Shown here: positions 1,103 to 54,379 of the stretch, piece by piece
Position numbering within the stretch: the first letter of the stretch is position 1
How the letters are laid out: every line of letters begins with the position of its first letter
NCBI GenBank assembly: GCA_035578155.1
Contig: JAPWDM010000007.1
Location: forward strand, 32,772,413 to 32,836,412
Reading direction: 5' to 3'
Origin: Brachynemurus nebulosus
Taxonomy: Eukaryota > Arthropoda > Insecta > Neuroptera > Myrmeleontidae
DNA length: 64,000 nt
Notes under the pieces: model-generated
Database searches by the model: none
Told to the model about the DNA's origin: nothing
The model's input: the letters and a program-made list of their open reading frames with translations, nothing else
Program-made: the position numbers and the translations under genes

Positions 1103-2622
1103 TAGACACCCTAATTCCACCGTTTAAAAGCTGTTTGTCTCATGGCATTATTCAAAAGGAGAAATTCAAATACGTATTCGAAACGAAATTCCGTAAATAT
1201 GTAAATCACCGTTGCATTTCGTAGCACTCCTCCTGAATAACGATGCCAACAATTAAAATGAACAACTTTTTGTGTTCAATATTTCAAAATTTTAAAGACG
1301 TTTTTATTTAACGTATTAATGTATGCCTGCACTTAGAAACCACACAGATGTCTACATCTATCGAAAATTTACGAAACTACAGAACGGTAAATAAGCAAAG
1401 ACACCAACCAAGCAAATACAATCTCGCCTATTCGGTCGGATTCACCTGCCTGTGCAAAGATGACACTAAAAATATCTACTCTACAATAAATTTTTCAAAA
1501 AAAAGTAGGGTGAAAGCACCACCAGCCGACCAATAGAATCGTTTGCGTAATTACTAAATCTGTTTACTTTTTCGCGAAATCGGCCATATTCTATCTAACT
1601 TCGGACATTTTTGATCCTAAAATCGATCTACGTCAAAAAACATTGGTTTAATTCTGGTCCTAAAATGTGATTTGGTAAATGTAACTTAAGTGTTGTTGAA
1701 GTCAAAAGTAATATTTTTTAATGCCCCCGCCCCCATAAATAATACCCCTAACTAAACTAATTGAAATAGTTTGAATACATTTTCTAAACAAAACGCCTTA
1801 AAAATCCAGTTGTTAGCCTAACCATCACTAAGCTGACCATAAGTTACGAAAATTTTTAATTAGTGTTGAACAGTCGTCAAAAGTCCACGAGTTTTATCGT
1901 TTCACCCAAATCGTTTAACCAAATATTAACTCAAATAGAAACTCTCTAGCCAAATACTCGTTAAAATTCAAGTCAGTTCTCACATATAGATATATAAATT
2001 GCAATATTATTAATTAAACTATAAAAAGTGCAGTTAAATAAGTTTTGCTTTCAATTAACATTCTTTTGTAAGAATTTCATAATTAATAAAAATTTTCAAA
2101 TGTAATATTAAAATTTTGTAAAATTTAAATTTTTTGTCTTTTTCTCAGTTACTTAGACATACCTATATACATATATTCGTGTTAAGTCGGTTAAAATGTA
2201 TAATTCTGTTTCTGCAACATGTGCCGGAAATGAAATAGCATTTGCCAGTACAGTAATCGAAGAAAATGATTGAATACTTTCATAAATCAATCTGTACAAA
2301 CTCAGCTGTAGCTAAAAAGAACATCAGTAATTTTCGAAAATACATCTAAATTCTAATTCCTGTTGCTAATAACAAGTATTAATTGGTTTCTCAATGGTAG
2401 TTAAGTCCCGATCCAACCAGTTTGTACGGCTATACCATTGCCCGCAATGATTGTAAAATTTAATTGCACTTTCTAACCCAGATTCAAGCTTAAGTGAGGC
2501 ATAATTTTGATTTTTTAAATACTTCAGTTTTTATCTAGTTGATTTCAAATGTAACTGCAGTTTAAAGAGGAGTTTCTCTAGTGAATATCGACGGATATTT
2601 TCGATTAACCTCCTTGCCCAAA
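1103..2622. other. Intergenic, nothing recognised
   Basis: AT-rich. A 62-codon frame at 1348-1536 on the plus strand has no recognisable domain and no sign of splice sites, so I do not call it a gene. Nothing else structured was seen. Confidence 0.5.
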
Positions 2623-2974
2623 ATACCCCTGTCGCAGCATCCTGCATAATATGGCGAATTTCCGTTTACAAAAATTAGTTTTTCTTGGAAACTAGTTGAC
2701 ATAAAATAACAGTTTAACGACCTTTCTATGTAATTTTTTTTCCTCTTTTCAATGGTGTAAAAAATTGTAGCAAAAATTTTTGAATAAGGGGAAACATTGG
2801 CAAAAACTAATTTCTTTCACGAAAAATGCCCCAAAAACCATGTTCCGGGCCTCGGACGTGTCTGACTAACGAGCTTGTCCAACGGTTTGGGACTTCCAAC
2901 ACTTTCACCAAATTTTGTAAAAGTAGGACATTTCGTTCGAGAGTTATCGTGCGGACACACACACACACACACAT

Positions 2975-3052
<78 letters not shown>

Positions 3053-3155
3053 GGTTTCTAGAGACCTCAAAACAAATTTCTGTCATAGTCTCGGGCTGAA
3101 GTCGTGTCATGACAGTGGCCGTAATAGCTGACTTTTCGATTCGAAAATTCCCTAA
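2623..3155 (+). mobile_element. Helentron-like non-autonomous element with central (TA)n, copy A
   Basis: The copy starts ATACCCCTGTCGCAGCATCC and ends at a CTAA after TTCGAAAATTC. An inverted motif (GCGAATTTCC near the left, GAAAATTC at the right end) lies about 25 nt inside the left end but at the very right end, so the inverted repeats are asymmetric. An (AC)n then (TA)n tract at 2955-3050 sits at the same internal point as in every other copy, between GTGCGGAC and TTTCTAG. The asymmetric inverted repeats, 3' CTAA and internal microsatellite fit Helentron/HINE architecture; that class call is inference. The repeated-YI frames across it are artefacts of the TA tract. Confidence 0.75.
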
Positions 3156-5445
3156 TACCAAAAAATATTGAAAATGATTAAATACGTCGACATATTTTTT
3201 TTAACTAGTGTATTTATACAGACAATACACTGAATATTGTAATACTGCTCTGAATTCAGTTTCCTTTCTCTTTCACGTAACTGTAACACGAATTTATTGT
3301 GTCCTTTTCATAGATCAATCAATTGGTAATAAAAATTTGTTAGCCGATTTTATCTCTAAAAACCGATCACCTGATATATCTTTGTTTCTCCTCTCTCGCC
3401 CCTTAAACAGTAGGTTTCAATAAGTATAATTAAATTAAGCTGATTGAGTTTAAGATTTTTAATCGGTAAATTGGAAATAAAAATAATGGACAATATAGGT
3501 ATATGGAATAATTCGAAAAATTATTTTTCAGATATCGTTTTCATAATTTCGTACTGAAAACATTAAAGCTTCCTGAAGGGTTTATCATTTTTATTTCTTA
3601 CAATACCGATATAATACATATTTTAATATAAAATCTGACAGTGTTAATATTAATTACTAATTAAATAGATAAAAATATTGTAATTTTATTGTCGATATTT
3701 GTAAGAGATTAAGTTACTTTGCATAAATTTCCAAGAAATTTACATGATACAACTTTTATCAGCGTGTAAATAGATCAATTAAGTAATTAATAAGAAAAAA
3801 AGATATTTAAAAGATACTCTTGTTTTACTTTACGATTTCAATAGAATATAAAAATAATTCTAATTTATTTAGAAATAGTTCGAAAAAAATATTTGATAAT
3901 TTGATCGGAAACTTAGACGTTACCAGATTCCAAATACTCGAATAATTACTTTTTTTTAATAACGTTTCTGTTTAATTTCTCTTGGTTGACATGGAAAGTA
4001 ATAATATAAAGTATATTTGACTTGAATTTCAAGAAATTCAATCGAGTAGTTTTTGAATGAGAACGTCAACGAATTGTAAAAATGTTGTTTCGATAAAAAC
4101 GTGTTTGAAGATTTAAAGCAGGTATACAAAACAGGCCACATTTTTTTGAAATTTCTAAATGTATTTCTTCCCTTAACTCGCGATTTCCCATTATCACCTC
4201 TAGATGACAGTGATTTGTGAATTTTTTTTTTACAGACAATATAACAAATTTTAAAAATAAATGTGTTACGACTAAAATGTTAATACTTAGTAGTATTCAT
4301 GGTTTTAATTTGGCCACACTGAAGTTATGTTAACGGTCAAATTAATTCTGTTGTTTCAAACGATTTGCTATTTTATTGCGTGTGAGTGTATCTTGTGGTA
4401 ATTTCGCTGTTGTAAAAATGTCTAAAGAGCCGGTATTGTTATTACTGTTATAACAAATTATTATTTAGAAATCAAGCTTATAATGAAAGTGATTTTTTAC
4501 CGGTAATTTCATACCGTTTTACTCAGTTCATACTACAAATAACGTCCAGTATCTAAAGGGTGTTTTTTTTTGATTATTTATTTTTAATATGTTGAGTACC
4601 TAAAGATAAAAACTAGCACAAAATAAGGATGTTTTGTCGATAGATCGCGGCTTGGGAATTTGCGAGTTAATCAATGTGCAACTTCAGACAAATTTTGTTG
4701 GAATCAACAGGTTCTCGCAACTTTTTCCCCTAAAGACTCAACATCCTTAACAGTTCGAACAATATAAATGATTTTATTTTGACAAAAATTGATTTGAATC
4801 GAATCAAGAGAATTTGTTTATAAATTCAATCATTTTGTTTGTATAATACAAATATAGCTATGAATAAATATGTATGATAATTTGAATTGAGATCAAGTTC
4901 TGTCGCTTTGCGAACGGTCATCACTGGTCAGTGTTTGCGAATATGACAAATACAATTAAGGTGGAGTTTACTTCATGTTTTAATATTGTCACGCAATTAC
5001 TGGACATTAGATTGACCTAATTCGAACTAATGTTGGCTTGTATAAAATTGAATGACGATCCGTTACAGATAAGACAATTTAATCTTTCTAATCTTAAACG
5101 TACAGTAATAGTTTCGGATTTGAGATTATTGAGATACCGAATTATTTTATGAGTCGTGTGTTATACAAACCTGGCACGGTTAAATCGATCGATTCCAAAG
5201 TTTATAGTTTTTTTTCTCTACACCCGACGAAAACTTTTTATGTGTTACTTCTTTCACAAAGACAAAGGTTAGATGATTTACGAAAATCTACGTACTTAAT
5301 TTGAATAACGTATTCAAAATTCATCTATAAATATCGAATAAATTTGTAATAAATTATAATATACAATTCACTTATGTAAAAACTGAAGCATCGTATATTT
5401 AATATGCCAGGGTTAAGATATTTTATGATGTATTGTTTAATACAG
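3156..5445. other. Intergenic, nothing recognised
   Basis: AT-rich with scattered poly-T runs. Short frames at 3208-3423 (+) and 3956-4141 (-) show no domain and look like chance. A lone GGGTGTTTTTTTTT at about 4559 resembles the end of the MITE at 21517 but has no partner. Confidence 0.5.
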
Positions 5446-11690: not shown

Positions 11691-12120
11691 TGAATAAAAA
11701 AGCTTTTTTAAAAAACCGACTTCAAAAAGTAAAATAATAATATAATAGACGTATTTTGAAGTCAAGCGGGGCGTCTATGAAAAATTGGGATCGGATGTGC
11801 TTACAAAATTCAAGAATTCTCAAAGATCTACATTTTTTTTATAGTACACCCCGTTTGACTTCAAAATACGTCTATTCAGAGGCGGCCCTACATAAAGGCG
11901 AACAAGGCGGCGCCTGGGGCCTCGCGCTTTTCAGGGGCCCCGCACAGCCATGAACCACGGCTTGGTAAATGAAATAACGCCAGTTTACCAATAGGAAAAA
12001 ATATATATGCCCCGCTATTGAACTTCGCCTTGGGCCCCGCAATTTCTAGGGCCGCCACTGCGTCTATTATATTATCTTTTTACTTTTTGAAGTCGGCTTT
12101 TTAAAAAAGCTTTTATTTCA
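11691..12120. mobile_element. Foldback element interrupted by a hAT MITE
   Basis: Long near-perfect inverted arms contain AAAAACCGACTTCAAAAAGT on the left and its complement on the right (ACTTTTTGAAGTCGGC). They continue inward through TATAATAGACG and TTTTGAAGTCAA. The right arm is split by the hAT element at 11877-12060. With the insertion and one target copy removed, the foldback is about 238 bp and almost entirely arm. The ACCGACTTC motif is common in insect repeats. Confidence 0.8.
11877..12060. mobile_element. hAT MITE, 184 bp
   Basis: The ends CAGAGGCGGCCCTA and TAGGGCCGCCACTG form a terminal inverted repeat of hAT type. The flanking octamer CGTCTATT is repeated exactly at 11869-11876 and 12061-12068. 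The interior is GC-rich compared with the surroundings. The insertion point is inside the right arm of the foldback at 11691-12120, so the hAT is the younger event. Confidence 0.92.
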
Positions 12121-12710: not shown

Positions 12711-13324
12711 GTGAGTGACCTTGACTGTGTACTTTTCACAAAAATTTCCTTCAAAGGAGTCAAGAATTTGTGACATTAGATACATTTTGCTTCTTGGACG
12801 CAATAGTTACATACGAGACATAACAATTTTATTGAAATAAAACCAAATAGAAAAAATCTAGTCAGTGTTTTTTGGCGAAGGCCGATGACCCACCTGGCAA
12901 CCAGACACGTATAAAACTTTCTGCACATGGTTAAGTAAACAATACAACTTTTTGCAATTAGACGAAATCCCTTCGATAAAATAGTCCACTAGCATGTTGC
13001 TATTTGCAGATGGCCAATATATTTTCAACTGACCCCCGTACTCTTTCAACATATTACAAAATTTATCTGTGTTAAGTTCAAATTTAAAAATAGATTATAA
13101 TAAAATTAGAATACAAATAATATATATGGTAAAAAAAAGAAAAAATAACAAAAAAATTACAATATTAAAAATATTGAAGTGATTTTTTTGTGGCATATAC
13201 CAGATGTTTACTTTATATCACGTATAACATAACTTTTGACCGGTTTGGACACAAACCGGTTGTATATTAATTATTTATAAATAATAAAACAAATATTTTA
13301 CTTAGCAAAAAATACCAAATTTAT
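12711..13324. other. Intergenic, nothing recognised
   Basis: AT-rich. A small hairpin ACCGGTTTGG / CCAAACCGGT-like pair occurs near 13240. The minus-strand frame at 12858-13052 has no domain and is not called. Confidence 0.45.
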
Positions 13325-14008
13325 TGCTTCCGAGACTACTAAAGTGACGGAAGCATTGTGATCACTTTTGAAAAATAAAAAATATTTTCCCTCCAATATA
13401 AAATTTTTTTAGGCACATTTTACGTTTTAGAGCTTCCTAATCAATTTTGGTTTGGTGTCTGTTCGTCTGTATGTCGCCAGTTTGCACGAAGCGGCATAAC
13501 TTCTGAACTATTCGATTGCTTTTAATGAAATTTTCAGAAATTATGCAGTTTAGTTCTTAGATGGTCCCCTATGAATTTAATCGAAATCGGAGTAACGGTA
13601 GCTACGCCGCAACCATGTCATTCCATTAATATACTAAATTGCACCAAGTGGCATAACTTCTCAACTATTCACTTCTTTTTTATGAAATTGTCAGAAATTA
13701 TGCGGTCTGGTTCCTAGATGGTCCCCTACAAATTTCATTGCATTCAGAGTAATAGTATCCACGGCGCTACTATGAAATATCATTAAATGTCAATATCTTA
13801 TTTACTGCTAGTCCCACTTCGCTCAAATTTCTAAAATATTTTGGGGGTTAGTTTCTAAAATATTTTTGCTATTATTCTATAATTTAGCCTTTAAATATTT
13901 TGAGTTACAACAATTTTTTATGAACTTTAAGGCGAAAATATAATTTCACGGTATATATATTTGATAGAATACCGTTTTAAAGTCTTACGAGTACGAGGAA
14001 GCTGTCTG
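13325..14008 (+). mobile_element. GCTTCCGAG repeat family, copy 1
   Basis: First of four copies (39746, 53341 and 59519 are the others). It opens with GCTTCCGAGACTACTAAAGT and a following CGGAAGC, which together form a 7-bp terminal hairpin. Inside are two diverged copies of a unit with GGCATAACTTCT and AGATGGTCCCCTA, about 160 bp apart. It closes near TACGAGGAAGCTGT. No coding capacity. Confidence 0.8.
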
Positions 14009-14629: not shown

Positions 14630-14765
14630 TTCTTAAAATTAAAAATCACAAAGTGATTGAAAAAATTATCCGGATCGGTCGGGAATCGAACCAAGGATCT
14701 CCCGGTAATTAGCCAGGTGTCTTCGCCATTGGATCAACGATCTGGTGTTCGACAGCCACCAGAGC
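14630..14765 (-). mobile_element. tRNA-derived SINE, minus-strand copy
   Basis: Read on the minus strand, a 72-nt tRNA-like head (14743 down to 14672) has an A-box-like TGATCCAATGG and a B box GGTTCGATTCC. A 5-bp anticodon stem CCTGG/CCGGG encloses the loop CTAATTA, putting AAT exactly at positions 34-36. The acceptor stem pairs at only 5 of 7 positions, so a working tRNA gene is unlikely. A tail CGGATAATTTTTTCAATCAC follows, shared with the copy at 15001. Confidence 0.7.
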
Positions 14766-14834
14766 TAGACAATCATTCAACTACCTATGTGTATTGGTAC
14801 TCTCTCTAATGCGAGAAACAGTTACAATTTTTCA

Positions 14835-15280
14835 ATTTCAAATATTATCGAGTGCTTATGAAACATTACTACGTATGACAAATTTTTGTTTGCATTTAAA
14901 CACACGCAGTATTCATATGTTCACTTATCGTTCAGCTAAATTGAAACTTTAAGCACTCGATTTCTTTGGTTAGTATGACCAAACTCCACATGTAAATTAA
15001 AAGTGGTTGGTCCAATGGCGAAGACACCTGGCTAGTTCCCGGGAGATCTTGGGTTCGATTCCCGGCCGATTCGGATAATTTTTTCAATCACTTTGTGATT
15101 TTTAATTTACATATGTGGATTTTGGTTATACTAACCAAAGAAATCGAGTGCTTAATGTTTCAGTTTAGCTGAACGATAAGTGAACATATGAATACTGCGC
15201 GTGTTTAAATGCAAACTAAAGTTTGTCATATTTAGTAATGTTTCACAAGCACTCGATAATATTTGAAATTTAAAAATAAG
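14835..15280. repeat. Large palindrome with a SINE in its loop
   Basis: The left arm (about 14835-15000) and right arm (about 15105-15280) are reverse complements over about 170 bp. Shared strings include AATATTATCGAGTGCTT, TTCACTTATCGTTCAGCTAA and AGCACTCGATTTCTTTGGTT. The plus-strand tRNA-like SINE at 15001-15115 lies exactly at the centre. Transcription of either strand would give a long hairpin. Confidence 0.85.
15001..15115 (+). mobile_element. tRNA-derived SINE, plus-strand copy
   Basis: The head at 15001-15072 has A box TGGTCCAATGG, T loop TTCGATT and B box GGTTCGATTCC. The anticodon stem CCTGG/CCCGG-type encloses CTAGTTC, so AGT falls at 15034-15036, canonical position 34 counted from 15001. 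The acceptor stem pairs at only about 4 of 7 positions, arguing against a functional tRNA. The shared tail AATCACTTTGTGATTTTTAA follows. It lies in the loop of the surrounding palindrome. Confidence 0.72.
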
Positions 15281-16028
15281 TTCTCAAAAATGGCAGGTAC
15301 CGAAAAAAAATCAATTCCTTTACCCGTTTTGTCAGTCTTCAACATTTTTTGTTTTAACAGTAAAAAAGCAGTTTTTAAAGCAGCAACAAAACTGAATAGA
15401 AGTAGTTTCGAGAAAAACGCGTGGTTAACATTTTGAAAAAAATTTCAAGTAGCCCCACAACAATCTAAGTCTTCGTTGCAAACAGCTGACGTTGAAACTG
15501 AACACTAAATTAAACTTTCTTTTAAGGACACAGTTTTAAAAATTGAAACTTTTATTTCAAATTTCTATACTAGAATACCTGATTGAAACTAGACTTATAC
15601 CTGTTTCAAAAATAAACGTCCCTCAATCAAATATTACATTAACACAAAAAAATCAATAATTTTTCGTTTGCGGAATCCATACACCGTTTCAACTCAAAAT
15701 TTTTACGTTATTTGAAAACTGTTACATAACCAATGTTCGTTCGTAGTGTCAAATGTGAATGTATACGTACATTTTAAATTTATGAAAGTCCGATTGGATT
15801 TAACCGAAGAGTACAAAGCAAATACTTGTAATTGTTTTTTGCCGTTTTTATGTGGTTATTGTATGTTTTGTGTATATTTTATAGTTTACGGATTAAACGG
15901 ATGGTCAGTCAGTGTTGTTGGTCAGACGAAATTCTCCGATAACTTTTTTTTGCGAAGGCAATAATTAAATATCTTAGCTGATATGAAAATTTATTGGAAT
16001 TTCTGAGTTCAACTACTGTTTAATGTTA
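15281..16028. other. Intergenic, nothing recognised
   Basis: AT-rich. A fragment with TTCGAGAAAAACGCG near 15403 is shared with about 40715 and 49965. The 72-codon frame at 15746-15964 has no domain. Confidence 0.45.
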
Positions 16029-16698
16029 CAGTAGAACCTCTGATTACGGACACCACAAATTTTTTATGACGGTGGCATACTATACTAAAAACCAATGTAT
16101 TCAGCACTCTCTTAAGCGAGCCATCTGTTAACCGGACCCGGGACACAATATTTTTTGGCGAAAACATATTAATTAGTACAGTATTACCTCCATTAATTGA
16201 ACGCAAGTACGTCTAGTGCGTATGTATATCTGTATGGGTTAGGTATAATTGATCATGTTTTAACTTGTTAACAATGATTCTAATGTGACGATGCCTTTAC
16301 AAACGTTATATTTTTGTATAAGTACGTAAACTCGTTCAATTCAAAAGAAATTTTGAATTAAGAAATTAGTTATGAATATAGGGTTGTCAACCGTACTTTA
16401 TAATAAAGTATCCTACTTTATTTTTCACAAACATACTTTATACTTTTGCATAAAAATAAAGTATGCTAAAATATTTTATTTTGAATCTTTACCGTGATTA
16501 CACTAAACAAAACTCTCCGATACGTAATTCCCAAACGATTTATTAAATATTAAGATGGATGATTTATCTATATTCTGAATCAATAATACTTAAAGAAATC
16601 CAGAAAAAATCTACTAATAATAACAAAAAATTTGCAAAGAAAAGTATTGCTGAAAAGCGGCAATAAATACTTAAAAATGCGTGCGATAACTTATCAAA

Positions 16699-17734
16699 TA
16701 GGGATTGTAATACCGGTAAATCGGTTTACCGGTTTACCGGTTTACCGGTAAATTACTAAAAATGCCTTAAAATTTTTATCGGTAAATCGCTGATTTTCTA
16801 CCGATAATTCGATAAATTAAAAATAATTGAAAATTTTTATAAGTTCATTTTATTCTATAGAAGAATGATCAAGTTTATTGAAAGTTTATTGTGTATCCAT
16901 AATAAATTATTCTATGGAACAATAAAATCGCATAATGCAATGGTCAATTTTAAAATTTACTTACATATTATTTAAATCAGCCGTACTTTTTCCAAAATAA
17001 TTAAACATTACGTTAAATGATTACATTGTAAGAAGCGGTAAGTAAATTTTTATTACAGGTAGGTATATATAATCGATTCATAATTTATGATTATTTAACA
17101 AATAAAATTATTTAAGTCGTAAAATCAAACAGATACAATTTTTTTTTACATAATTTTTATCTTATTTTCTATACTGTTTATCAGTGTTTTTCAACCTTTT
17201 TCATGGTGCGACCCCCCTAGTACGAAAAAATATTTCGCGACCCCCTACCCTCCGCTATTTCTAAGTTTTGTTTTTTTTTATGTCATATAAATATGGAATC
17301 CGTTTATCATTACTAATTATTTTCAGTTAGATATCGATTAAATATGTAATTGAGGACTTGAATCAGGCATATTTTTACTATTATTGAAAGTAAGGATTTA
17401 CTGTTATTGAAAATAAGCCGCAGTTATTTGTTTTGAAACTTTATCACGCGAAAGCATGAAACCATCACATTAATGTAACCTTTAATTAACCTTCTCTTTA
17501 TTAAATATTATATATTGAACTAGAGTTGTTTTATTTTTAAAGTAACTGCGACCCCGTTAAAAAGGTTGAAAAACACTGCTGTATATAATGACCTAAATAA
17601 AATAATTTTACGTTTTTATTTATTTATTTTTCTAATATTAATTCTTATATTTTACATGTTTTAAAAAATTCCGGTAAATTACCGGTAAACCGGTTTTGCT
17701 AAAAAATGAAAAAGTCGGTAGATTACAATCCCTA
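16699..17734. mobile_element. hAT element, third level of the nest
   Basis: The ends TAGGGATTGTAAT and ATTACAATCCCTA are perfect inverted repeats. The octamer TTATCAAA is exactly repeated at 16691-16698 and 17735-17742. Just inside are repeated ACCGGT words (TTTACCGGTTTACCGG on the left, TTACCGGTAAACCGG on the right). It interrupts the hAT at 16379 and is itself interrupted at 17182. No transposase is visible. Confidence 0.95.
17182..17578. mobile_element. hAT MITE, innermost level of the nest
   Basis: The ends CAGTGTTTTTCAACCTTTTT and AAAAAGGTTGAAAAACACTG are perfect 20-bp inverted repeats of the Charlie-like hAT type. The flanking octamers CTGTTTAT (17174-17181) and CTGTATAT (17579-17586) match at 7 of 8. 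A GCGACCCCCTA word next to the left end is typical of such MITEs. At 397 bp it has no coding capacity and is the youngest of the four layers by position. Confidence 0.93.
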
Positions 17735-17742
17735 TTATCAAA

Positions 17743-17914
17743 TATATATAAAAAAATTAAGTATTTCTTATTTACTGGTCCCACAACCGTAGCTTTCACT
17801 GAGAGAGTTCTTTCGGTGATGAATGTGAAGTGGCGAGCAGAGAGATATAGATCCTCCATAAATTTAATAGAAAAAAGTATTATTTATTTATTTAAATCTA
17901 AACTTAGATTGTAA
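17743..17914 (+). pseudogene. hAT transposase C-terminal relic
   Basis: The frame downstream of the third-level insertion reads through FTERVLSVMNVKWRAERY, ending at a stop at 17914. The ER-x-x-S-x-MN-x-x-W-x-x-ER pattern is the signature near the dimerisation end of hAT transposases. The upstream part of the protein is absent: the insertion at 16699 lies directly before it and sequence further left has stops in all frames. It belongs to the second-level hAT and cannot encode an active enzyme. Confidence 0.7.
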
Positions 17915-18223
17915 AACTTGCTAACTATGAAACGTTCATAGATAACAAAAATTGTTAGCGTGTGCTAAAAACACAAAAAAAAATGTATTTAAGGCAATAA
18001 AAACTTAAATTTGGAAAATACTTTTTTTTCTAATAAATACTTTATTTTTTCTTATTCAAAAGATTGATTAGATACTTTATTTTTCTCAAAAAAAGTTGGC
18101 AACCCTACATGAATACTATATCATTTAATGCTATTATTTACTCTGCCCCTGTTAAGCGGACACCTCTGTAAGCCGGACAAATTTTTGCGTGACACTGCTG
18201 TCCGATTAACAGAGATCCAACTG

Positions 18224-18735
18224 TAAAAAAAATTCCATCTCCTCAACAAATTCTGATGTCCAATCGTAGAAAATTGTGAAGTTGGCACGCTTGGTCTAGA
18301 GTAAACAGACCGTAGATTACTTATTATCTAATTTCCAAAAAAATTTCGTCCCAAAATTCCAACAATATTAATCGTAAAAATACAGTGAATTGAGAGTCGA
18401 AGTTCACACCTTTAACATTGACTCTAATGAATCAAACAATCAATCAGAATCAGTCAGATACGTAATTTAAAAAAATTATGTTTATTCGAATTAATTCAAT
18501 AGATTATTTGTTATGAATACGTTAGGATAATCAACAGGTGTACATTGAAATCAATATAACCGTCACGAAAGCCGTCACTGTGTTTTCACACTATAAATCG
18601 TATAGTATCGTATATACCGGCATACAATGTGCACAGAGTACACTGTCCGTCAAAAAAATATCATACGCTACTGGGTGCATTCATTTAAATCAGTAGTTAC
18701 ATAATTTTACAAATATGAGAATAATTTGCTTTATC
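18224..18735. other. Intergenic, nothing recognised
   Basis: AT-rich, no gene or paired repeat end seen between the nest and the next hAT MITE. Confidence 0.45.
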
Positions 18736-19209
18736 TAGTGATGAGCAAAATTAGTCTTGGTCTTGCAGTCTTGTCTTGGTCTTGTATTTTTTTGCAAGAC
18801 CAAGACCAAGACTATGTATATCAATAGCAAGACCAAGACCAAGAGTATAAGTATGGCTGCAAGACCAATACCAAGACTCAAGTGAGCAAGACCAAGACAA
18901 TAGCAAGAAAAAAGCAAGACTCTTGCTAAATTATTTAAATATAGTTTAAAAGTATAATTAATACCGTAAAGAGATAAAATTCTGATTTTAGAAGGAAAAA
19001 GTTCGCTAATAAAAAAATTCAAGAAAGTGCAAGATTCTTTAGCAATACCAAGACTAAGACCAATACCAAGACTGCATTTTGCAAGACCAAGACCAACACC
19101 GAGACTCAAACTGCTCTAGCAAGATCAAGACCAACATTCTTAATGCAAGAACAAGACCAAGACCAAGACTGCCAAGTCTTGGTCTTGGTCTTGCAATTGC
19201 TCATCACTA
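18736..19209 (+). mobile_element. hAT MITE with (TCTTGG)n interior, copy 1
   Basis: The ends TAGTGATGAGCAA and TTGCTCATCACTA are perfect inverted repeats. Flanking octamers GCTTTATC (18728-18735) and ACTTTATC (19210-19217) match at 7 of 8. Both halves are filled with degenerate TCTTGG / CCAAGA hexamers, around a unique core with TTAATACCGTAAAGAG. The 124-codon minus frame across it is a by-product of the hexamer repeats (alternating L/G/S) and not a gene. Two more copies are at 35653 and 47574. Confidence 0.92.
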
Positions 19210-19239
19210 ACTTTATCACATTTCACTAAATTTTGTTTG

Positions 19240-19400
19240 TGATTCGGAAAGGAACGTTACCTGATGATGAGTTAATTAATCAAAAGCTTACTCGTAACCG
19301 AACAATGTAATTTAATGAAAAGTAACAAAGCAAATTATTCTCATATTTGTAATATGGAATTTCACAAAATAAATCTTTCAAATGTTAATTATTTATAAAT
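19240..19400 (+). repeat. CTGATGATGAG family, copy 2
   Basis: It matches copy 1 from CTGATGATGAGTTAATTAAT through AAAGTAACAAAG, TTGTAATATGG and TTTCACAA. It lies just outside the hAT MITE at 18736. Confidence 0.6.
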
Positions 19401-19817
19401 TTGACTGTTTTACAAGAAACTTCCGACATGTAAAGTGTCCAAGCGCCTCCTAAAGGTAAATCCGGTCCTGGATGTACGCCATTTTTAAAAAAAAATGCAA
19501 GTGCGTATAGGACACGTATTAAGTTAGGGATCTTCGAGATAAAATTATGTAAGTTTATTATAAAAATGGGTAAATATATTCGACAATGTTACTAGCACTT
19601 GAGGTACTTGAGGATTAGGTGATAATTTGGTTCCTTATATCTCGAGACTTAAGCATGATATTGCATGATTACGGGAAAATACCTTCTGTGTTATACACGA
19701 ATGATCCAAAAATTATTGGAAGTGTGACAAACGAACGGATTTAAACTACAATTGCTTCCAAGTTGTTTATCTTCGTAACCCGAAAAATATTCCTGTTAAT
19801 TTTTATAACATTTCAAC

Positions 19818-22086: not shown

Positions 22087-23114
<1,028 letters not shown>

Positions 23115-23884
23115 TAAGTAATTAAAGTACAAACTCAGTATCTACGACCTTAGGCGTCCATAGATCTTTTCCAAAATGCCGAAAAAAAATCTGACATAAC
23201 CATACAAAATTAAGTTGTCTGAGCTATTTTCAATATATAGAAATTTCTTCAAATATGGACTATTTTTTTGTTGTTTTTTTGTTTTTTGTTTTACCACAGT
23301 GCCGGCTTCTCCTCATTACGGACAGTTCTGGATATTCTGTTCAAAATATCAAATTTCATCCGATTAAGTTAAAAATATGAGTTCAAATCCTGATATAATT
23401 AACACTTGAATTCTAAATGGTCAAACGAAAGTTTACCATTGGTAAGAATTCATTTCCGCAATGGGAAACTAAACATCTCTTACATTTCCTTCTTAAGCAG
23501 CTTCTACATAAGTTGACATAACATACCTATCACATATATTGAGAACATCGCCATAACTGTCGAACTTGATGTATTAGTTAAAAATTGTTGTTGTTGCGTT
23601 AAGTAATTTCATGAAAACTAGCAAACTGCGCATGGCTTCCTCAATCTTTACACGTCCTTATAAATTCCTAACACGTTAACCCCCGTGTGCACCAATTTGA
23701 TTCACACTAAAATTGTGACATCCACTCGAAATCTGTGCCTTGCGTGATAATTTAGAGTGGTCTGCACGAGAATATGTCTGGGAGATTGAAATTAACGGGC
23801 ATTCTAGCGCGGGTTTAGTGAATAGTCTCAACAGGACCGTATTTACGCGCAGACAGAGCCGGATTCAGTTCTCGAATTCGGGGT
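23115..23884. other. Intergenic, mixed composition
   Basis: Moderately less AT-rich around 23640-23880 (for example CGTGTGCACCAATTTG and GGGCATTCTAGCGCGGG). I found no ORF, splice-bounded exon or paired repeat end. Confidence 0.4.
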
Positions 23885-26820: not shown

Positions 26821-27807
26821 TAGAGATGTCGATTTTAAATCGATTAATCGAAAATCGATTTAAAATCGAAGCTTAAAAAATCGATTCTATTTTCGATTTT
26901 TTTCATTTGAATCGATTCATGAATCGATTATTAAAAGTAAGAAATCGATAACCGATTTTTTCCAAAAATAACTTCATTTTAATAGTAATTCTACAAAGAA
27001 CCATGTGTTAAAATGAAACACCAAAAACTCTATTGTTAATTGTCACTTTTTACTCGTTATATCAACGGACCCCTCCTATGGCTCTATATAAGTCAGACTA
27101 TTAATATAAAAGGAAGGAAGAGACCACCTATCTGTGCAAACGACGATCCCTTTCCCATAAAAGCGACTTATTTAGAAAACATTTTTTTGTCAATTTGTTT
27201 GAAATTTTTGAATAAACTTGGTTTAATTCGTGGTATTCGTCCTACATATTCAATTGCCTTATTTTTTATAATTATAATTGAAAAGTTAACTCATTCATCG
27301 CCTTTACAAATATAATGTAAGGCGTTTTTACACGATATTACCGATATTACCTTCGATGTTTAAGTTGTGATAGCACGTAAGTGACATTTTTTGGAAATTT
27401 TTTTTTTATGCAGATGGATAGATATTGAAAATACGCATCTATCGATCCAGAAAAAATGGTACTTTTATAAAAACTAATGAGGAAGAACAATGTTTTTGAC
27501 ACCACGTATTATGCGGAAGCTCAATTTTGTAAGGTTGACTCCGCGCATCTTAACATACGTGATGTCTCAATTTCATGTTCGTCACTTACGTGCTATCACA
27601 ACTTAAACATCGCTATGTACTATCAAGTAAGTCCCTTAAACAAAAATTATCAGCTAATTTTATTAAACTTTTCAAAATTTCGATTTTTTAGATCGATCTC
27701 ACAGAATCTATTTTTTTCAGCCGATTTTTTTTGAATCGATTTTTTTTTATTTCGATTTAAATCGATCCAAAAATCGATTCTTTTTTTTTGGAGAATCGAC
27801 ATCTCTA
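26821..27807. mobile_element. hAT element with ATCGAT-rich ends, 987 bp
   Basis: The ends TAGAGATGTCGATT and AATCGACATCTCTA are perfect inverted repeats. The octamer CTTCTGAC is exactly repeated at 26813-26820 and 27808-27815. About 100 bp at each end is built of AAATCGATT variants. The frames inside (27040-27315, 27477-27734) have no transposase motif. A 32-bp perfect inverted repeat lies inside at 27354-27612. Confidence 0.95.
27354..27612. repeat. Perfect 32-bp inverted repeat inside the hAT
   Basis: Arms at 27354-27385 and 27581-27612 are exact reverse complements, starting CGATGTTTAAGTTGTGATAG. They enclose about 195 bp. This may be a separate MITE nested in the hAT or part of the element's own interior. 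Confidence 0.75.
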
Positions 27808-35652: not shown

Positions 35653-36072
35653 TACTGATGAGTAAATGCAAGACCAAGACCAAGTCTTGGTCTTGGTTTG
35701 GCTCTTGCATTCAGAATCTTGGTCTTGGTCTTGCTAGAGCAGTTTGAGTCTTGGTCTTGGTCTTGGTCTTGCAAAATGCAGTCTTGGCCTTGGTATTGCT
35801 AAAAAATCTTGCACTTTCTTGCATTTTTTTATTAGCGAATTTTTTCCTTCTAAAATCAGAATTTTCTCTCTTTACGGTATTAATTATACTTTCAAACTAT
35901 TTAAATAGTTTTGCAAAAGTCTTGCTTTTGTCTTGGTCTTGCTCACTTGAGTCTTGGTATTGGTCTTGCAGCCATACTTATAGTCTTGGTCTTGATCTTG
36001 CTCTTGGTATACATAGTCTTGGTCTTGGTCTTGCAAAAAATGCAAGACCAAGACTAATTTTGCTCATCACTA
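35653..36072 (-). mobile_element. hAT MITE with (TCTTGG)n interior, copy 2
   Basis: The octamer GTTTACTC is exactly repeated at 35645-35652 and 36073-36080. The ends are TACTGATGAGTAA and TTGCTCATCACTA. Orientation is reversed relative to copies 1 and 3, judged from the unique core and the end that reads AGCAAAATTAGTCTTGG. The 124-codon plus frame inside is hexamer-repeat translation. Confidence 0.94.
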
Positions 36073-36080
36073 GTTTACTC

Positions 36081-36785: not shown

Positions 36786-37206
36786 CAGGGCCGGCCTAAG
36801 ACAAAAAATGCAAGTGTGCAAGATCCACATTTTATGACCCTCCGTAATGGCTCGGCACCTGCGCGTGGCACAGTGGTGCAAAAGTCTGTCCCTAACCCTA
36901 ACGTCTTGTTCCCGCCTCCCGCCACACGGGCAGACGACTGCTCTACTGACCTTGAACCTTGGTCAAGCGCATCAAACTACTGTATTTCAAAACTCATTGG
37001 GGTAGATAATCGGCTTTACCTTGAAATTCAGCTGTAATAGTTTTGAGACAAAGTTCCTTGTAGTTTAAATATTTATGCCCAACATTTAAATCAATTTCTA
37101 AAAATTTGCAAAATTTATTTTTTTACCAAAATTGGCCAATTTTATGCCCCTTCAAAAGACTCGAATGTGCGGCTGCATACTTCGCACACCCCTTAGGTCG
37201 GCCCTG
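36786..37206. mobile_element. hAT MITE, 421 bp
   Basis: The ends CAGGGCCGGCCTAAG and CTTAGGTCGGCCCTG are inverted repeats with one mismatch. The octamer TACAGTCT is exactly repeated at 36778-36785 and 37207-37214. The left half is comparatively GC-rich and gives a 73-codon frame (36816-37037) without any transposase motif. Confidence 0.95.
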
Positions 37207-37720: not shown

Positions 37721-39745
37721 TGAAATTTCCATAGTTTTAGCAAATTTTCCATTTGAAAATTAATTTCTTGTTATCAATTAATACTCGTAGAATCTAATTT
37801 TAAGAATTTAGTTTTCTGCAGTTTAAAAAAGTAAAAGTATAGACTTAGGATAAAAGGTCAAATTTTTTAAAATGAATCGTTCCAGAAGAGAAGGAGGATT
37901 AAATCACGAATTTTCGTTAATGCTAAAAAAAAAATTACGAACCTCCGTTATTCCCAATTAGTTCAACAACTTCCTAATCATCTATATATTATAATATTTA
38001 ATGAACAAATTTCACTAAGATTTTATTATAGATAACAATATTGAATATAGAAAAGAAATGATAATTTTTTTTTTATTTTTACCATATTGAGGTTTATGAC
38101 TATTGGTGGACATCGTCAACAGGAGTTAATTCATTTGTGACCCGGTTTTACTTTATTCAACATACGCAAAGCATCTAAAACATGTATAAATATGTGCTTC
38201 GTACACTTTCGATCAAAAAACTCTGATTTCTTTTCACCGGCTTCGTATTTTCTGTAATGATTCATAATCAAAAAGCATCCCGTAAAAATTAACATATACA
38301 AAGTGTCTCAGATAGCAATTCCAAACATGGAAATTTCGTAAAAAAAATAAAATAGTCAAAGGCATCAAATATTTCTGTTCAACTTATCACGTATTCCATC
38401 GCATTTGTTCGCTTTTTGCGCAGCCGCACGGACAGTCGCAATAAGACAATTAAGGTAAATCGAATGACACCACATTTACGAGAAATAAACGTAGGCACAC
38501 AGATATTATTAAAATTGGCTCACAGTGGTCGCAAATTTTTGACGAATCGTGTAAAACGTGTACAACAGATTGTTGCAGTCAACTTATATGCAGAGACATT
38601 GTGTCGTCATCCCGTTTATGTTCGTTTGATTAAAATACTTGCTCAGACCCTACTTAGGCAACAGTGAGTAAGAATAATCCGTACTATAATATCTAAGAAA
38701 GTTCTCCTCGTACGTAAACACAACAATAAGTAACTTCTTTTTGCTGGTTTACACACAGCACTTTTATTGTATGGTATGTCTTATGATTTATTGTTGATTC
38801 TGCGCAAGTGTTAGATTGTCCCAAACGTTTTTTTTCTTCTCGTTCGTTTCAATTAGAATTTGGATAATTTAAATTTTTGAATATTAGTCCCAATTCAACC
38901 GGTACAAAATATGAAAGTGCGAGAAACGTATTCGTTAGGGCATTCAGCTGAACTGTTTTTTATGCGATCATTTTTGTGCGATTTTTTATGCGGTTTTTAA
39001 AAAAAAATGGCCATTAAAATGTATAATATAAATCAAAATCAAGAGACAGTAAGAAACTTAAGCATTTACTGTAATAACTTTCTTTGATCAAAATACTTTT
39101 TAACGGCTTTTAAGCATTTAATCAATACATTGCATAAGAACATAAGTTATTGCATCATTTATTTTTTTTACAGATGTATTATTCAAAATTTTCATAATAT
39201 TATAAAATTGACATAAAATGTTTCCACGTGTAAATTAATGCTTTATCTTGTTTATAGAAACAACTTCGAAGGAAATTTCTAATTTTTGAGGGTTTTGAGT
39301 GATATTTTTTGATGAAACTTTTTTTATGCGGTCCCAATCCACCGCATAAAAATGTTTATTAAATGTTGAATTAACAATAATACTTTACCAGTTATTTAGG
39401 CTGATAAAACTGCACAGAATAGACCTTAAAATTTTCAATTAGTTATATAAAAATTATTCAAATGCAAAACCAATGACAGCAAGACATACTATTTTATACA
39501 CACAATACATATACACTGTTTGTTTGTTTGTTTGTTTATTTGTGTTTATATGTGTAAACACCATATAAATAATATTATTGTTTATTTAATTGGTGTTCAT
39601 TGTATCTGGTAAAATTTTTTTATTATAATATTTTTATTTTGAAATTGTTCATTTTTTCATTGAATTTAAAATGTATTGGTTTTAATGTAATTGACGTAAT
39701 TTTGAAAATGGTGAACATTTGGTCAATACGAATTCAGTTCTCGTT
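37721..39745. other. Intergenic apart from one candidate ORF
   Basis: AT-rich, with a (GTTT)n-like run near 39520 and the candidate frame at 38416-38667. Repeated ATGCGGT / TTTTTATGCGG words near 38960-39350 may mark a diverged repeat. Confidence 0.4.
38416..38667 (+). CDS. Unrecognised ORF, 83 codons, doubtful
   Basis: Codon use is less AT-driven than neighbours, with many CGT/CGC arginines. It includes HSGRKFLTNRVKRVQQIV and LCRHPVYVRLIKILAQTLL. A strong acceptor-like TTTGTTCGCTTTTTGCGCAG lies at its start, so it might be a 3' exon ending at the stop at 38665. No domain is recognised. It could equally be a relic of a mobile element. Confidence 0.25.
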   Translation: MRSRTDSRNKTIKVNRMTPHLREINVGTQILLKLAHSGRKFLTNRVKRVQQIVAVNLYAETLCRHPVYVRLIKILAQTLLRQQ

Positions 39746-40340
39746 TTGCTTCCGAGACTACTAATGTAGCGGAAGCATTGTGATCACTTTTGAAAAATAA
39801 TAAATTTTATCCCTCCAAAATAAAATTTTTTACGCACATTTTACGTTTTAGATCTTCCTGAACAATTTTGGTTTGGTGTCTGTCGGTCCGTCCGTCTGTG
39901 GGTCGCCAGTTTGCACCAAGTGGCATAACTTCTGAACTACTCGATTGTTGTTAATGAATTTTTAGAAATTATGCAGTCTGGAGGGTCCCCTATGAATTTA
40001 ATCGAAATCGGGGTAACGGTAGCTATGCCGCTACCATGTCATTCCATTAATGTACTAAATTGCACCAAGTGGCATAACTTCTGAACTATTCAATTCTTTT
40101 TTATGAAATTGTCGGAAATTATATGGTCTGCTTCCTAGATGGCCCCTACAAATTTCATTGCATTCGGAGTAATAGTATCCACGTCGCTACCATGAAATCC
40201 TATTAAATGTCAATATCTTATTTACTGCTAGTCCCACTTAGCTCAAATTTTTAAAGTATTTTGGGAGTTAGTTTCTAAAATATTCTTGCTATTATTTTAT
40301 ACGAGGAAGTTGTGTGCCACACGCCACTGGCAGCGTATTT
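39746..40340 (+). mobile_element. GCTTCCGAG repeat family, copy 2
   Basis: It opens TTGCTTCCGAGACTACTAAT, carries the two internal GGCATAACTTCTGAACTA units and closes TACGAGGAAGTTGTGTGCC, ACACGCCACTGGCAGCG. It lacks the ATAATTTCACGG-type stretch present near the end of copies 1 and 4. Confidence 0.8.
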
Positions 40341-42524
40341 TTCTTTTGACGAATTTTTTTTTAAAACTATTCTTAACATTTTAGTAAGTTAACAATTAAC
40401 CAAGTAAACAATTTGGTCAATTGATAAAGGTTTCAGTGAATGAACCAGAGGACTACAGTTCTGTTAGGTGGTTCCAAAAAGTTATAACTGTGCACTAAAT
40501 CACTTTGAAATGCCAAAAAAGAAGGTTCTGTTTGCGAATTTTTTCGTCGAAACAAATAATGCAATCAGTAAAACTCAAAATGGCTCACATGGCAGTATCC
40601 TGTAAAAATTTTGTGTACCACTCTAGATATCTGTCTACGAAGTTACAGGCAAAATTTCAAATTATGCGGATAAAAATTGCTAGAGTTATCTTGCCCACCG
40701 TTTTGGAAAACGTAATTTCGAGAAAAACGTGTTTATCGTTTTATGTGTTTTTACCTATCATGAAAGCTATCTGTGAGTTATTTACGAAAATATAACTGAA
40801 TGTAGTGACAAAAAATTATCGACCTAACTAAGAGACGCTAAAATGCTACGCGCTAGCGCAACGAAGTGATGTTTTTAAACGTTGTCAAGTGCTTAAAGTC
40901 GTTGACTTGAGAGGTTATAGTTGAGTTTCACTATTTTTTTTCTGAACTAAAATTAAAACTTTATTTTAAGTGGCTAAATTAATTTTTGTTATGAAAAATA
41001 TTGAAAAATAAAAATTTTACAGTCGAAGTTCCAAAACGTTTTTTTTTCTGATGGTTTGCGATGAACATGATTTCTAAAAACCTACAATGGCTGCTGGCTC
41101 GTGATCGAAAGGTTAAGAAAAATTTTGTTGCTGATTTGAAATACAGTACTTTTACAAAAAGTCTTCAGCAGTATCAGTGGAGTCTCGTTCTGATAATGTG
41201 AACACGTCTATCCAGAAAATTTAATAGTGAGTGTTTTTCTAGAAAGGTTTTACTGTAAGTCAAAACCATCTAATGTTATCTTTTGAATAAAAGAAAGATT
41301 TTTACCTTCGTTACTTTTGTCAATCATAAAGAGCGACCATATTCAAAATTTACATAATCACCAAATAGGACTAAATAGATTATGGCCTCGTCGTTAGGCT
41401 TAAAAACATCGATATTTTATTCATAATACTAATTGACATCAACCATTAAAAAAAAATCCCAATCGAATGTTTTTACATCATAGATTTAAAACGTTTCCAT
41501 TGATCAATATCAATGTACAGTTTTAGGCCATAGTCCAAATCAAAGACATTTAAAAATTTTTTGATCGAAGATAAAACATTTATGTGTGGATTTTCCCATT
41601 AGGTGCTTACATTTTGGAAAAACTTTTCAATCACATTTGCCACATCATGATCAGGAAACAAAAAATTTATAAATATAATTTCAAAAAAAAAATTTATTTC
41701 CGTGGTTAAGATTTAGATCAATTATCAAGGTTAGTGGTCGTGTAACCAGAGTTGTCCACTTTAATTAAAATATCAATTATTGATGTTTAATTGCGTTGAT
41801 TAGAAATTAATAAATTATGAATATACGTGTATGTACAGTATTGTCAAAAAGTCTGTGCACACATATCAAAATTTACGATTCTTGAAAACAAAGTAAATTG
41901 GGATTGCAAAATAAAACATGTTCAACCTTCTTAACAACTAATATTACTAAAACAAGTATCGTATCTATTTTTCAATCTATATAAGCAGCTAGGATTTTCT
42001 TTGGATTCACCAAATTCTCCGAATTGGTTATTAAGTACCTGGTATTCAAGTATTTTGCTATTTATTATTTAAATTTATTTATTATATCAACTAAATAACT
42101 GAATTGAGTAAATAGCCTTCAGTCAGATCACTCACTTTGTATCTATCTGAAAAAAAAAATTCAAAATTCTAGAATTTAATATTCTAGAATTCTTTTTGCA
42201 TAGAGAAATATTTTTATTAAAAAACACCACTGATTTGTTTACGTTTTTATGTTTAAAGACTATAATTTATGGCTTTATAGTTCAGCTCATAACCAATCTT
42301 ATTTATGTCATGAAAAATATGTAACTAATATTATTTCCCTTTGTTTTTGTAATATTGTTCGATTTTTCACTTTTATTATACATAATTAGTAACATTTATG
42401 AACTTTAAGTTACAAACAAAGTTCTAAAATTCAACAGAGAAAAGTTGAAATTTGAATACTCTAGATTATGACATCCAAACCAATTTCTTTAACTCATACT
42501 TTATGTAATTGTTTGTTTTTTTTT
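40341..42524. other. Intergenic, nothing firmly recognised
   Basis: AT-rich. The 96-codon frame at 40505-40795 lies in sequence sharing ATTTCGAGAAAAACGTGTTT with about 49965, which suggests an old repeat. One-sided transposon-like ends occur near 41747 (CAGAGTTGTCCACT) and 41837 (ACAGTATTGTCAAAAAGTCT). Confidence 0.4.
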
Positions 42525-42646
42525 TTAGCGAATTTCCAGAATGGAAATTCAGCTATTACAGTAGGTCTCATGACGGGACTTGAGCCCGGGACTATGGCAG
42601 AAATTTGTTTTGAGGTCCCTAGAAACCGAAAATAATATTCACTAAA

Positions 42647-42708
<62 letters not shown>

Positions 42709-43051
42709 TTATGTATTTATGTATCAGCACGATAACTCTCGAACGAAACGTCCTAGGGTTACGAAATTTGGTGACAACGTTGGAAGTCCAAAAATCTTGG
42801 ATGAGTTCTTCAGCCAGACACGTCGGATGCCAGGAACATGGTTTTTGTTCTTGCAAAAAATTAGTTTTTTGCCAAAATTTCCACTTATTCAAAAATTTTT
42901 GCCAAATTTTTTTACACCATTTAAAAGAGGAGAAAAAGTTACATAAAAAAGCTCTTTAAACTATTATTCTATGTCAACTAGTTTCCGAGAAAAACTAATT
43001 TTTATAAACGGAAATTCGCTATGTTATGCAGGATGCTGCGACAGGGGTATT
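42525..43051 (-). mobile_element. Helentron-like (TA)n element, copy D
   Basis: Complete reverse-strand copy. Read on the plus strand it opens TTAGCGAATTTCCAGAATGG and closes GATGCTGCGACAGGGGTATT. The (TA)n tract is about 42650-42705, followed by imperfect TGTATTTA units. The frames across it are artefacts. Confidence 0.78.
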
Positions 43052-47573: not shown

Positions 47574-48020
47574 TACTGATGAGCAGTCTTGTCTTGCTCT
47601 TGCATTTTTTGCAAGACCAAGACCAAGACTATGTATATCAAGAGCAAGACCAAGATCAAGACTATAAGTATGGCTGCAAGACCAATACCAAGACTCAAGT
47701 GAGCAAGACCAAGACAATACCAAGAAAAAAGCAAGACTCTTGCTAAATTATTTAAATATAGTTTAAAAGTATAATTAATACCGTAAAGAGAGAAAATTCT
47801 GATTTTAGAAGGAAAAAATTCGCTAATAAAAAAATTCAAGAAAGTGCAAGATTCTTTAGCAATACCAAGACCAAGACCAATACCAAGACTGCATTTTGCA
47901 AGATCAAGACCAAGACTCAAACTGCTCTAGCAAGACCAAGGTCAAGATTCTTAATGCAAGAACAAGACCAAGACCAAGACTGCCAAGTCTTGGTCTTGGT
48001 CTTGCATTTGCTCATCACTC
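47574..48020 (+). mobile_element. hAT MITE with (TCTTGG)n interior, copy 3
   Basis: The octamer TCTACGAT is exactly repeated at 47566-47573 and 48021-48028. The ends are TACTGATGAGCA and TTGCTCATCACTC, the last base having changed from A. It aligns with copy 1 throughout, including AGTGCAAGATTCTTTAGCAA. The minus frames are hexamer translations. Confidence 0.93.
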
Positions 48021-49663: not shown

Positions 49664-51835
49664 AATTTTTATAAGAGTTATAAAGATGTATTATTTGTTG
49701 CAACACAAAACGTCCAATCAACACTTCTTTTGTTTCCAGGATTCAATCACTTTTTAAGATACTTAAAATAGGGTTAAGCTTAACGCTTCGATTTGATCAA
49801 TTTTTTCGCTCTTTGACATCCAGTAAATTCAGTTCAAGTCGATCTGTCGTAATAAAACAAACTTTATGCTGATAAAAGGGATCAGTTGTATAGATGGACC
49901 CACCAGACAAACAGAAACCTCTAGTTCAAACATATTCATCCACGTCATTTTGAAAAAAAATGATTTCGAGAAAAACGTGTTTCCAGATTTCTTCTGCTTT
50001 TTCGGGCCACATAGTAAGCCTCCTTTTTGGTCGAATTTCAACAGTGTAAAACTTTATTCGAATTTGTTATTACCTTTGGACAAATATCTTAGAAACTAGA
50101 CGTTTTTTCGCAGCAAAATTTACAAGCAACAAATTCTATAACAGTCATCTTTACTGAAAAGCCAATATTTTTTTTTAAAATAAAAAATATTAGTGTGTGA
50201 GAAAATCCTGTTTGGGCGGCTTCAGGGTATGCTTATTTTATGTTTATTGCAAAATTTGTACAATTGCAATTATTTCAACAAGCCGGCTCAACTAATTAAT
50301 TTCTAAGTTGTATTAATGTTTAAAATTCGTGGTATAAACATTTTTTATTTTGTTTTTGGGTAGGTATGTCATTGACAAATAATTGTGTATGGCCATCCAT
50401 GAATACTTTAATATGTTCGTCTATGTCGCCGATGGGGAAACACTACCGATTCATCTTCCGCGGTGTTCCGTGTCGTTAAATTGATAAATAAAATTTTGTT
50501 TATAAATGGTCTTGGTTCGTTGAACTTATTTGAAACATTTCATTTCTTTTAATATTTCTTAGAACGATTGGGTGTGCTTCTATAGTAAGCGATGTACCCA
50601 TAGTAGGGGCGTCGACGTTAAAAAATCGCCGTCATCGAGTTTCGAGTTGAATTGATTATGTTGATTTATTTCATATTTAGTACTTCTATGAAGTAATTGT
50701 CGGTCGCGGCACGTCCTGTCGGGTAATGCGTGAGAATCGAATTCCGGTGGCTTCTGGCACTGTACTATTACGTGACAGAATTACAGTTTTTTTCTTTTTA
50801 ATTTTGTAGAACTCAATGAGTATAAATGAAATCAATTTGTCGGCCATATGATTTATTGTCAGATAACTCAGGCCGACCAAATTAATGCGCAAATTATGAG
50901 TTGACTATTACGTCATCGAGTTTTGGGCTATATTGTACACCAAATTAAAGCTGAAACTACGTAGATTCCTAATATTTTTGTCGGCCAGCTTGCAGCCTGT
51001 CGGTTTTCTCAGTCCGACTGAATTTATCATTAGAAAAAGTATGTCTTTTGCCACCAATAAATGTATATAGTTTAGGTTCTATATTTTTTGTATGTGGGAA
51101 CTGGAAGGGGCTTGGTAAGAAGAAAATGTCTAGGACCTCAAAGGTTAATCCGCCCCTGGTACTGCATATTAACTTGCTGACAAGAAATATTTCCCCTAAC
51201 AATTTAGACTTAATTTTTCTAGGAATATATCTCCGAAAGTAAATAACGCGATTTAATCAAAATAATTTCAAGTAACGAAATCATATGGACCACTGATTTT
51301 TCTTCAGAACCCCACCAAGAAGAATCCTTAATTTTTAAATTAAGTATTTTTCAAAGATTTCTCAAAATTACTTCCCACTGTTTTATTTGTATAAACATTT
51401 TTTTTTCTTTTGTAAATTGTTATCCAAAAATACATCAGCTGCTGGCTACCAGCATTATTTACCAAATATTTTTATACGTTTTTGTTGCTGAGGCACAACA
51501 GCTGGCTGTTACTTTAAATAAAAAATCGAATTTTAAATTATAGTTATTGATTAATGTGTTTCCGATCAATAGCCGCATCACTTATTGGCCAAATGCATGG
51601 CCGTAGCGAGAAGCGGGGCTCGGAGCGAGCCGGCAGCTTCTTATTTCTTTTATTATAGATTTATAAACGCCTTTTTCTGTTACAATTTGGAGGGGATTTG
51701 AATCCTCAAAATCGTCTACGACCTTGGTCAAGGTTACCCGTGTTCATATTTTTGAATGGAACGACAGTGAACAATGCATGTAAGTATATAAAAAGATCAA
51801 AGAATACGAGAAATCTTTAGATAATCAGAAATATA
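49664..51835. other. Intergenic, mixed repeats, no gene
   Basis: 50600-51160 is bounded by TAGGGGCGTCGACG and AATCCGCCCCTGG, which look like hAT ends but do not match each other or share a flanking octamer. CGTCATCGAGTTTCGAG recurs in diverged form at 50910. A GC-richer patch at 51596-51640 has no ORF. Confidence 0.35.
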
Positions 51836-52142: not shown

Positions 52143-52220
<78 letters not shown>

Positions 52221-52315: not shown

Positions 52316-52377
52316 AAGCCAATTTTATATAGTATTAATAAAGCTATCACACGTGTATTATGTGACAAAATTTGGCG

Positions 52378-54330: not shown

Positions 54331-54379
54331 AAACTTCAAACCCAGTTTTATTATTCAAGTATTTTATTTACAGTTTTGA

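Follow-up and report, generated by a model that had tools for sequence, protein, structure and literature searches.

Can the order in which nested transposons arrived be read from their position alone? This question is raised by a locus in a 64-kb window, that is, the whole stretch of Brachynemurus nebulosus DNA that we analysed, in which a pogo-like element contains a hAT (hAT1), which contains a second (hAT2), which in turn contains a third (hAT3). A preliminary description, made from the letters of the window, counted four successive insertions and took their order to be fixed by position. We consider it very probable that only three cut-and-paste insertions took place at this site, the last one bringing in a ready-made hAT2+hAT3 composite, which had been built elsewhere at an earlier time.

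Architecture of the nest

Direct reading of the sequence places the pogo-like element at 16029-18223, hAT1 at 16379-18107, hAT2 at 16699-17734 and hAT3 at 17182-17578, with target duplications, from the outermost layer inwards, of TA, 7/8, 8/8 and 7/8. The four layers with matched ends reported previously were exact in both coordinates and duplication scores. The ends are CAGTAG...CAACTG in the pogo-like element, TAGGGTTG...CAACCCTA in hAT1 (duplication TATGAATA/CATGAATA), TAGGGATTG...CAATCCCTA in hAT2 (duplication TTATCAAA/TTATCAAA) and CAGTG...CACTG in hAT3, where 20 terminal bases pair exactly (duplication CTGTTTAT/CTGTATAT). The features are as follows.

16027..16028, no strand: TA target duplication of the pogo-like element, left (sequence)
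16029..18223, + strand: pogo-like non-autonomous element of 458 bp when hAT1 is discounted, with ends CAGTAGAACCTCTG.../...CAACTG and CTGTTAAnCGGAC-type repeats inside (sequence, genome copies)
16371..16378, no strand: hAT1 target duplication, left, TATGAATA, which is also the most frequent state among empty pogo copies (sequence, genome copies)
16379..18107, + strand: hAT1, 685 bp without its insert, a hAT with an internal deletion in which the 3' part of a broken transposase gene is left
16568..16699, + strand: transposase remnant left of hAT2, aligning to P0001 residues 453-496 and containing a stop
16691..16698, no strand: hAT2 target duplication, left, TTATCAAA (sequence, blind scan)
16699..17734, + strand: hAT2+hAT3 composite, probably the unit inserted into hAT1
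17174..17181, no strand: hAT3 target duplication, left, CTGTTTAT; the six other readable composites have CTGTATAT (five) or CTATATAT (one)
17182..17578, + strand: hAT3, 397-bp non-autonomous element (ends, scan, genome copies)
17579..17586, no strand: hAT3 target duplication, right, CTGTATAT
17735..17742, no strand: hAT2 target duplication, right, TTATCAAA (sequence, blind scan)
17735..18005, + strand: transposase remnant right of hAT2, aligning as two pieces to P0001 residues 494-581 and containing stops and a frame change
18108..18115, no strand: hAT1 target duplication, right, CATGAATA (sequence, blind scan)
18224..18225, no strand: TA target duplication of the pogo-like element, right (sequence)

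For the hAT layers, we scanned the window blindly for inverted ends of 12 bases (at most one mismatch) accompanied by an 8-bp duplication of at least 7/8. The scan returned 10 pairs, against 1 in total in 20 simulated windows (first-order Markov). Three of these pairs are the hATs of the nest, one lies inside the hAT2 ends, two surround a tRNA-like inverted repeat and four are further candidates. The mismatches in the duplications of hAT1, hAT2 and hAT3 (1/8, 0/8 and 1/8) are without trend, and their number is too small for dating.

The window contains other repeats as well. Four further hAT-like candidates with matched ends lie at 11877-12060 (8/8), 18736-19209 (7/8), 26821-27807 (8/8) and 36786-37206 (8/8), the second of which is related to 35653-36073 and 47574-48019. 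At 15001-15072, a tRNA-Thr (agt) is predicted inside an inverted repeat (region 14636-15277; the other arm, 14636-14738, is 93% alike), which adjoins a larger imperfect palindrome. A dispersed repeat with long (AT)n tracts occupies at least five places (2621-3164, 22577-23117, 42516-43051, 51835-52317 and 63734-64000), and a second dispersed family of approximately 83-94% identity occupies four (13311-14008, 39744-40301, 53478-54336 and 59543-60248), the first of these including, at 13482-13786, tandem units of approximately 157 bp.

Outer layers and their empty sites

We searched the window's own assembly (960,095,421 bases, or 960 Mb, in 138 contigs), where a first look gave 2200 candidates for hAT3, 1449 for the pogo-like element, 640 for hAT2 and 587 for hAT1. 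Since only the best 40 candidates were scored per family, family sizes are lower bounds. Besides the window, these samples comprised 39 other places for each family: all 39 were read for hAT3, 29 for hAT1 and 20 for the pogo-like element, while the 39 of hAT2 consisted of 8 composites (see below) and 31 others, 19 of which were read. Each family proved to be dispersed separately in the genome, and the earlier claim of four distinct, physically nested families is thereby borne out.

The outermost element, with its TA duplication, its CAGT ends and GTTAACCGGAC-like repeats, we take from these ends to be of the pogo/Tigger type of Tc1-mariner. Taken alone, a 2-bp TA duplication is weak evidence of a boundary; the boundary is backed by genome copies and by a second copy in the window (63599-63736) starting at the same base. 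That second copy is devoid of an internal stretch of about 73 bp and is truncated at 63736 by a repeat that bears a microsatellite. No open frame of at least 70 residues was found in the pogo parts of the window. Among the 20 other pogo copies read, 16 run unbroken through the hAT1 site with at least 20 bases on each side, and none contains hAT1 (short AT-rich matches in L210 aside); in L218, pogo sequence ends exactly at the hAT1 site, passing into non-hAT1 DNA. As 14 of the 18 copies with letters at the target carry TATGAATA, the left duplication in the window probably preserves the ancestral state, while the right one, CATGAATA, has since been altered.

A similar picture emerged for hAT1, in which 27 of the 29 other copies read unbroken across the hAT2 target and 15 have their own duplication of at least 7/8. 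None of the 29 holds hAT2 or hAT3, and none lies within a pogo element, overlaps in L181 (31 bases) and L159 (21 bases) having failed a recheck. Together with the absence of hAT1 from all 20 pogo copies, this gives no sign of all layers having been amplified together in the copies read. With its 8-bp target duplication (7/8 in the window) and short inverted ends, hAT1 belongs to the hAT superfamily, and its broken transposase remnant aligns to residues 453-581 of P0001, a protein of 581 residues that passed the threshold for PF05699, the hAT C-terminal dimerisation domain (23 vs 21.4 bits). The pieces flanking the hAT2 insertion belong to one transposase (residues 453-496 and 494-581). The remnant itself had no Pfam match, and a Pfam search with 10 open frames plus a PDB search returned nothing for the nest. 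Judging by these alignments, hAT1 is an internally deleted hAT element. In this respect it resembles nhAT-10_Hm of Heliconius, an internally deleted hAT with a short 5' and a longer 3' part kept, which is a different element in a different host, with no nesting described in the relevant passages of that report (PMC4016481).

P0001 belongs to a family of 119 proteins, itself included, of which 62 match the joined remnant. Across the hAT2 site, 46 of the 62 can be aligned, 44 with 1-3 gap columns nearby and two with 6 and 9, which provides independent evidence, at the level of protein, of an empty site. The family (P0001-P0119) has named members in moths and butterflies, beetles, aphids, fishes, a skate and a tortoise, and P0001 shares 83-84% identity with proteins of Manduca and Pieris; a test for horizontal transfer might be worthwhile. 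A search of viral contigs with P0001 gave no confirmed match.

The hAT2+hAT3 composite

In 8 of the 39 other hAT3 places read (from the best 40 of 2200), hAT2 surrounds hAT3 at the same site as in the window (L115, L116, L117, L118, L122, L123, L127 and L133); the remaining 31 have no hAT2, short AT-rich or end matches aside. A query made of the hAT2/hAT3 junction ran fully across the border in 7 places, the window included, after which the score fell from 271 to 156 bits; below the drop came L123, with a few bases across, and then hAT3-side matches. The eight lower matches reaching furthest into hAT2 revealed no further hAT2 (a 29-base match of opposite orientation in L227 aside). Adding L122 and L123 to the junction set gives at least 9 known composites, window included.

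The match between these composites and the window stops at or inside the hAT2 ends, a few chance bases aside, as seen with query 15000-19500 for four composites and query 16020-18230 for all eight. Five of the eight have their own, differing outer duplications, namely GTAAGTAC, GTTGCATT, GTTATGTA and GTTTGAAT (8/8 each) and ACCAGAAT/ATCAGAAT (7/8); in L116, L123 and L127 the duplication is unreadable, one end being decayed, cut or not found. Because the match ends with hAT2 and five outer duplications are separate, the composites represent transpositions rather than segmental duplication, and these separate 8-bp duplications show that the composite was moved by the hAT2 ends. The inner duplication, on the contrary, is shared: CTGTATAT stands to the right of hAT3 in 7 of the 8 other composites and to its left in five of the six that can be read there, and among the six readable on both sides it is found on both in four and nearly so in two (in L122 the left hAT2/hAT3 border is lost). 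Several copies that carry their passenger at one and the same site, while their outer duplications are separate, are the mark of a composite MITE, and hAT2+hAT3 bears this mark. The preliminary description had named joint amplification as a composite repeat as the result that would speak against it; it occurred for hAT2+hAT3, in 8 further places, and not for all layers.

Both members have short inverted ends and 8-bp duplications (8/8 for hAT2 and 7/8 for hAT3 in the window), and it is by their ends only that the non-autonomous hAT2 and the 397-bp hAT3 are assigned to hAT; none of the 119 hAT1-type transposases matches wholly inside either. Viral contigs searched with the hAT3 end gave nothing, and the hAT2 end matched two contigs, with no hAT2 around the match in the stretches read. 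A 16-base hAT2 pattern, found in 111 stretches among 257 billion bases of contigs, was at about chance expectation and was not used. In the composite L127, about 400 bp beginning TAGGGATG (1705-2111) interrupt hAT3, apparently a further element making a three-deep nest.

Could hAT3 instead have struck the same hAT2 site repeatedly and independently? Elements of the hAT superfamily have weak target preferences, and many solo hAT2 copies do carry CTGTATAT, or something near it, at the site. However, in 17 of the 19 other hAT2 copies read, the left and right parts are joined at one copy of much the same target, which has stayed empty (of the two exceptions, L186 is diverged and L197 is broken by other DNA). 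Moreover, a block of about 60 bp (58-68 bp) at 17113/17114, measured in 16 of the 31 other hAT2 places, is absent from the window and from all 7 other composites readable there, and both parts of the composites differ from the window by no more than a few per cent (4.65% in hAT2 left, 3.33% in hAT3 and 2.81% in hAT2 right, over the 8 other composites). There is no space for the block in L186 either, a hAT2 copy outside the known composites; lack of the block is thus a subfamily character and not one of composites alone. Repeated targeting appears extremely improbable. We give just as little credit to an origin of the nest by assembly error or segmental duplication: every border consists of element ends plus a duplication, no sign of the assembly error against which the preliminary description had cautioned was found at the junctions, and the flanks of the copies read are unlike the window outside the elements, short AT-rich stretches aside. 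All three explanations were rejected.

The simple and most likely reading is that of a single founder, in which hAT3 entered one hAT2 that lacked the 60-bp block and the pair then spread. Could the window copy have been this founder? In that case, four successive insertions (pogo, hAT1, hAT2 and hAT3) would have occurred here, and the other composites would be later copies derived from the window locus. Such a course of events fits the nesting, and divergence does fall inwards, down to 1.3% in hAT3 vs 2.3% and 1.7% in the two hAT2 parts. Yet this last difference is not significant (p 0.46), and the inner site is common to eight other places. By a loose pattern match, furthermore, the window copy is devoid of two blocks present in 8/8 of the other composites, so these would have had to leave before the blocks were lost. 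The two missing blocks, and a divergence of the window copy that is unremarkable (1.79% vs 1.6-3.2% in the others), make the window an unlikely, although conceivable, founder, and we regard four insertions at this site as distinctly improbable. The tree of the composites, being unrooted and with low supports, leaves the founder question undecided.

Order of insertions and its implications

Compared with its family majority, the window differs at 30/453 positions (6.62%) in the pogo-like element, 27/682 (3.96%) in hAT1 and 17/948 (1.79%) in the composite; these values are rough, as the majorities come from the best-scoring copies (20, 29 and 8, respectively), columns with fewer than 5 letters or less than 60% agreement being left out. 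By Fisher's test, pogo vs hAT1 is borderline (p 0.052), and hAT1 vs composite (p 0.012) and pogo vs composite (p 9e-6) are clearer. The decrease inwards anticipated by the preliminary description is supported across three insertions, its first step being borderline, and does not extend to hAT2 vs hAT3. Its expectation of empty sites at the deduced targets held for all three inner insertions (16/20 pogo, 27/29 hAT1 and 17/19 hAT2 copies). The notion that position fixes the order, in turn, is not supported for the inner pair: since hAT2 and hAT3 most likely moved as one composite, the locus would record three insertions and not four. The entry of hAT3 into hAT2 cannot be ordered against the pogo and hAT1 insertions, and on the composite reading it most likely preceded the third insertion.

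The following scenario best accounts for the nest. Initially, a pogo-like element would have inserted into a TA, and hAT1, an internally deleted hAT, would then have entered it at TATGAATA. Elsewhere, and before the third step, hAT3 would have inserted once, at CTGTATAT, into a hAT2 copy without the 60-bp block. This ready-made composite would finally have landed in the broken transposase gene of hAT1 at TTATCAAA. Transposases of the hAT superfamily act on element ends and subterminal sites, and an insertion that spares these would leave a non-autonomous element movable by a transposase made elsewhere. As the interrupted hAT2 presumably retained working ends, hAT transposase supplied in trans could still have mobilised it, with hAT3 travelling as a passenger to at least 9 places. 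In our opinion it is highly likely, if slightly less so than the three insertions themselves, that a hAT into which another hAT had inserted kept its mobility, giving rise to a new mobile unit of two families with a small burst of its own.

Comparable cases are known. In the composite MITE MER6/MER6A, as described in the relevant part of PMC6887750, a SINE entered a MITE; here, too, the host of the inserted mobile element is a non-autonomous DNA element, and multiplication of the composite followed. The passenger of MER6/MER6A is, however, a SINE and the outer element a Tc1/mariner (PMC6887750), whereas here both are hATs with 8-bp duplications and 9 copies are known. The cadherin allele r15 of the pink bollworm likewise has nested elements (three) with target duplications and a MITE outermost, but the succession there is MITE, RTE and SINE, co-mobilisation being unmentioned in the passages concerned (PMC6522560).

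Nested elements are common (PMC2517846); in a fly region of 600 kb they made up 11 of 322 repeats, according to the pertinent section of another report (PMC3630058). The four families and the composite are ordinary repeats; what this locus offers is a well-documented and clear case of co-mobilised nesting. As outlined in the corresponding passages, TinT and REANNOTATE read insertion order from nesting, the latter using nesting level (PMC4016481, PMC2672092), and the Heliconius authors excluded DNA transposons from their nest-based analysis because cut-and-paste movement makes nesting less informative (PMC4016481). Compared with such chronologies, nesting level and insertion order part company at this locus. 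Empty sites of the three inner insertions and a junction search within one genome show here that matched ends and clean duplications in every layer are no proof that all of them arrived by a jump of their own, and before a nest of cut-and-paste elements is used as a clock, one should first ask whether its inner layers travel together. If composites of this kind are common, DNA-transposon chronologies that equate depth with order would be biased, and the assumption that the youngest element is the innermost would be unsafe.
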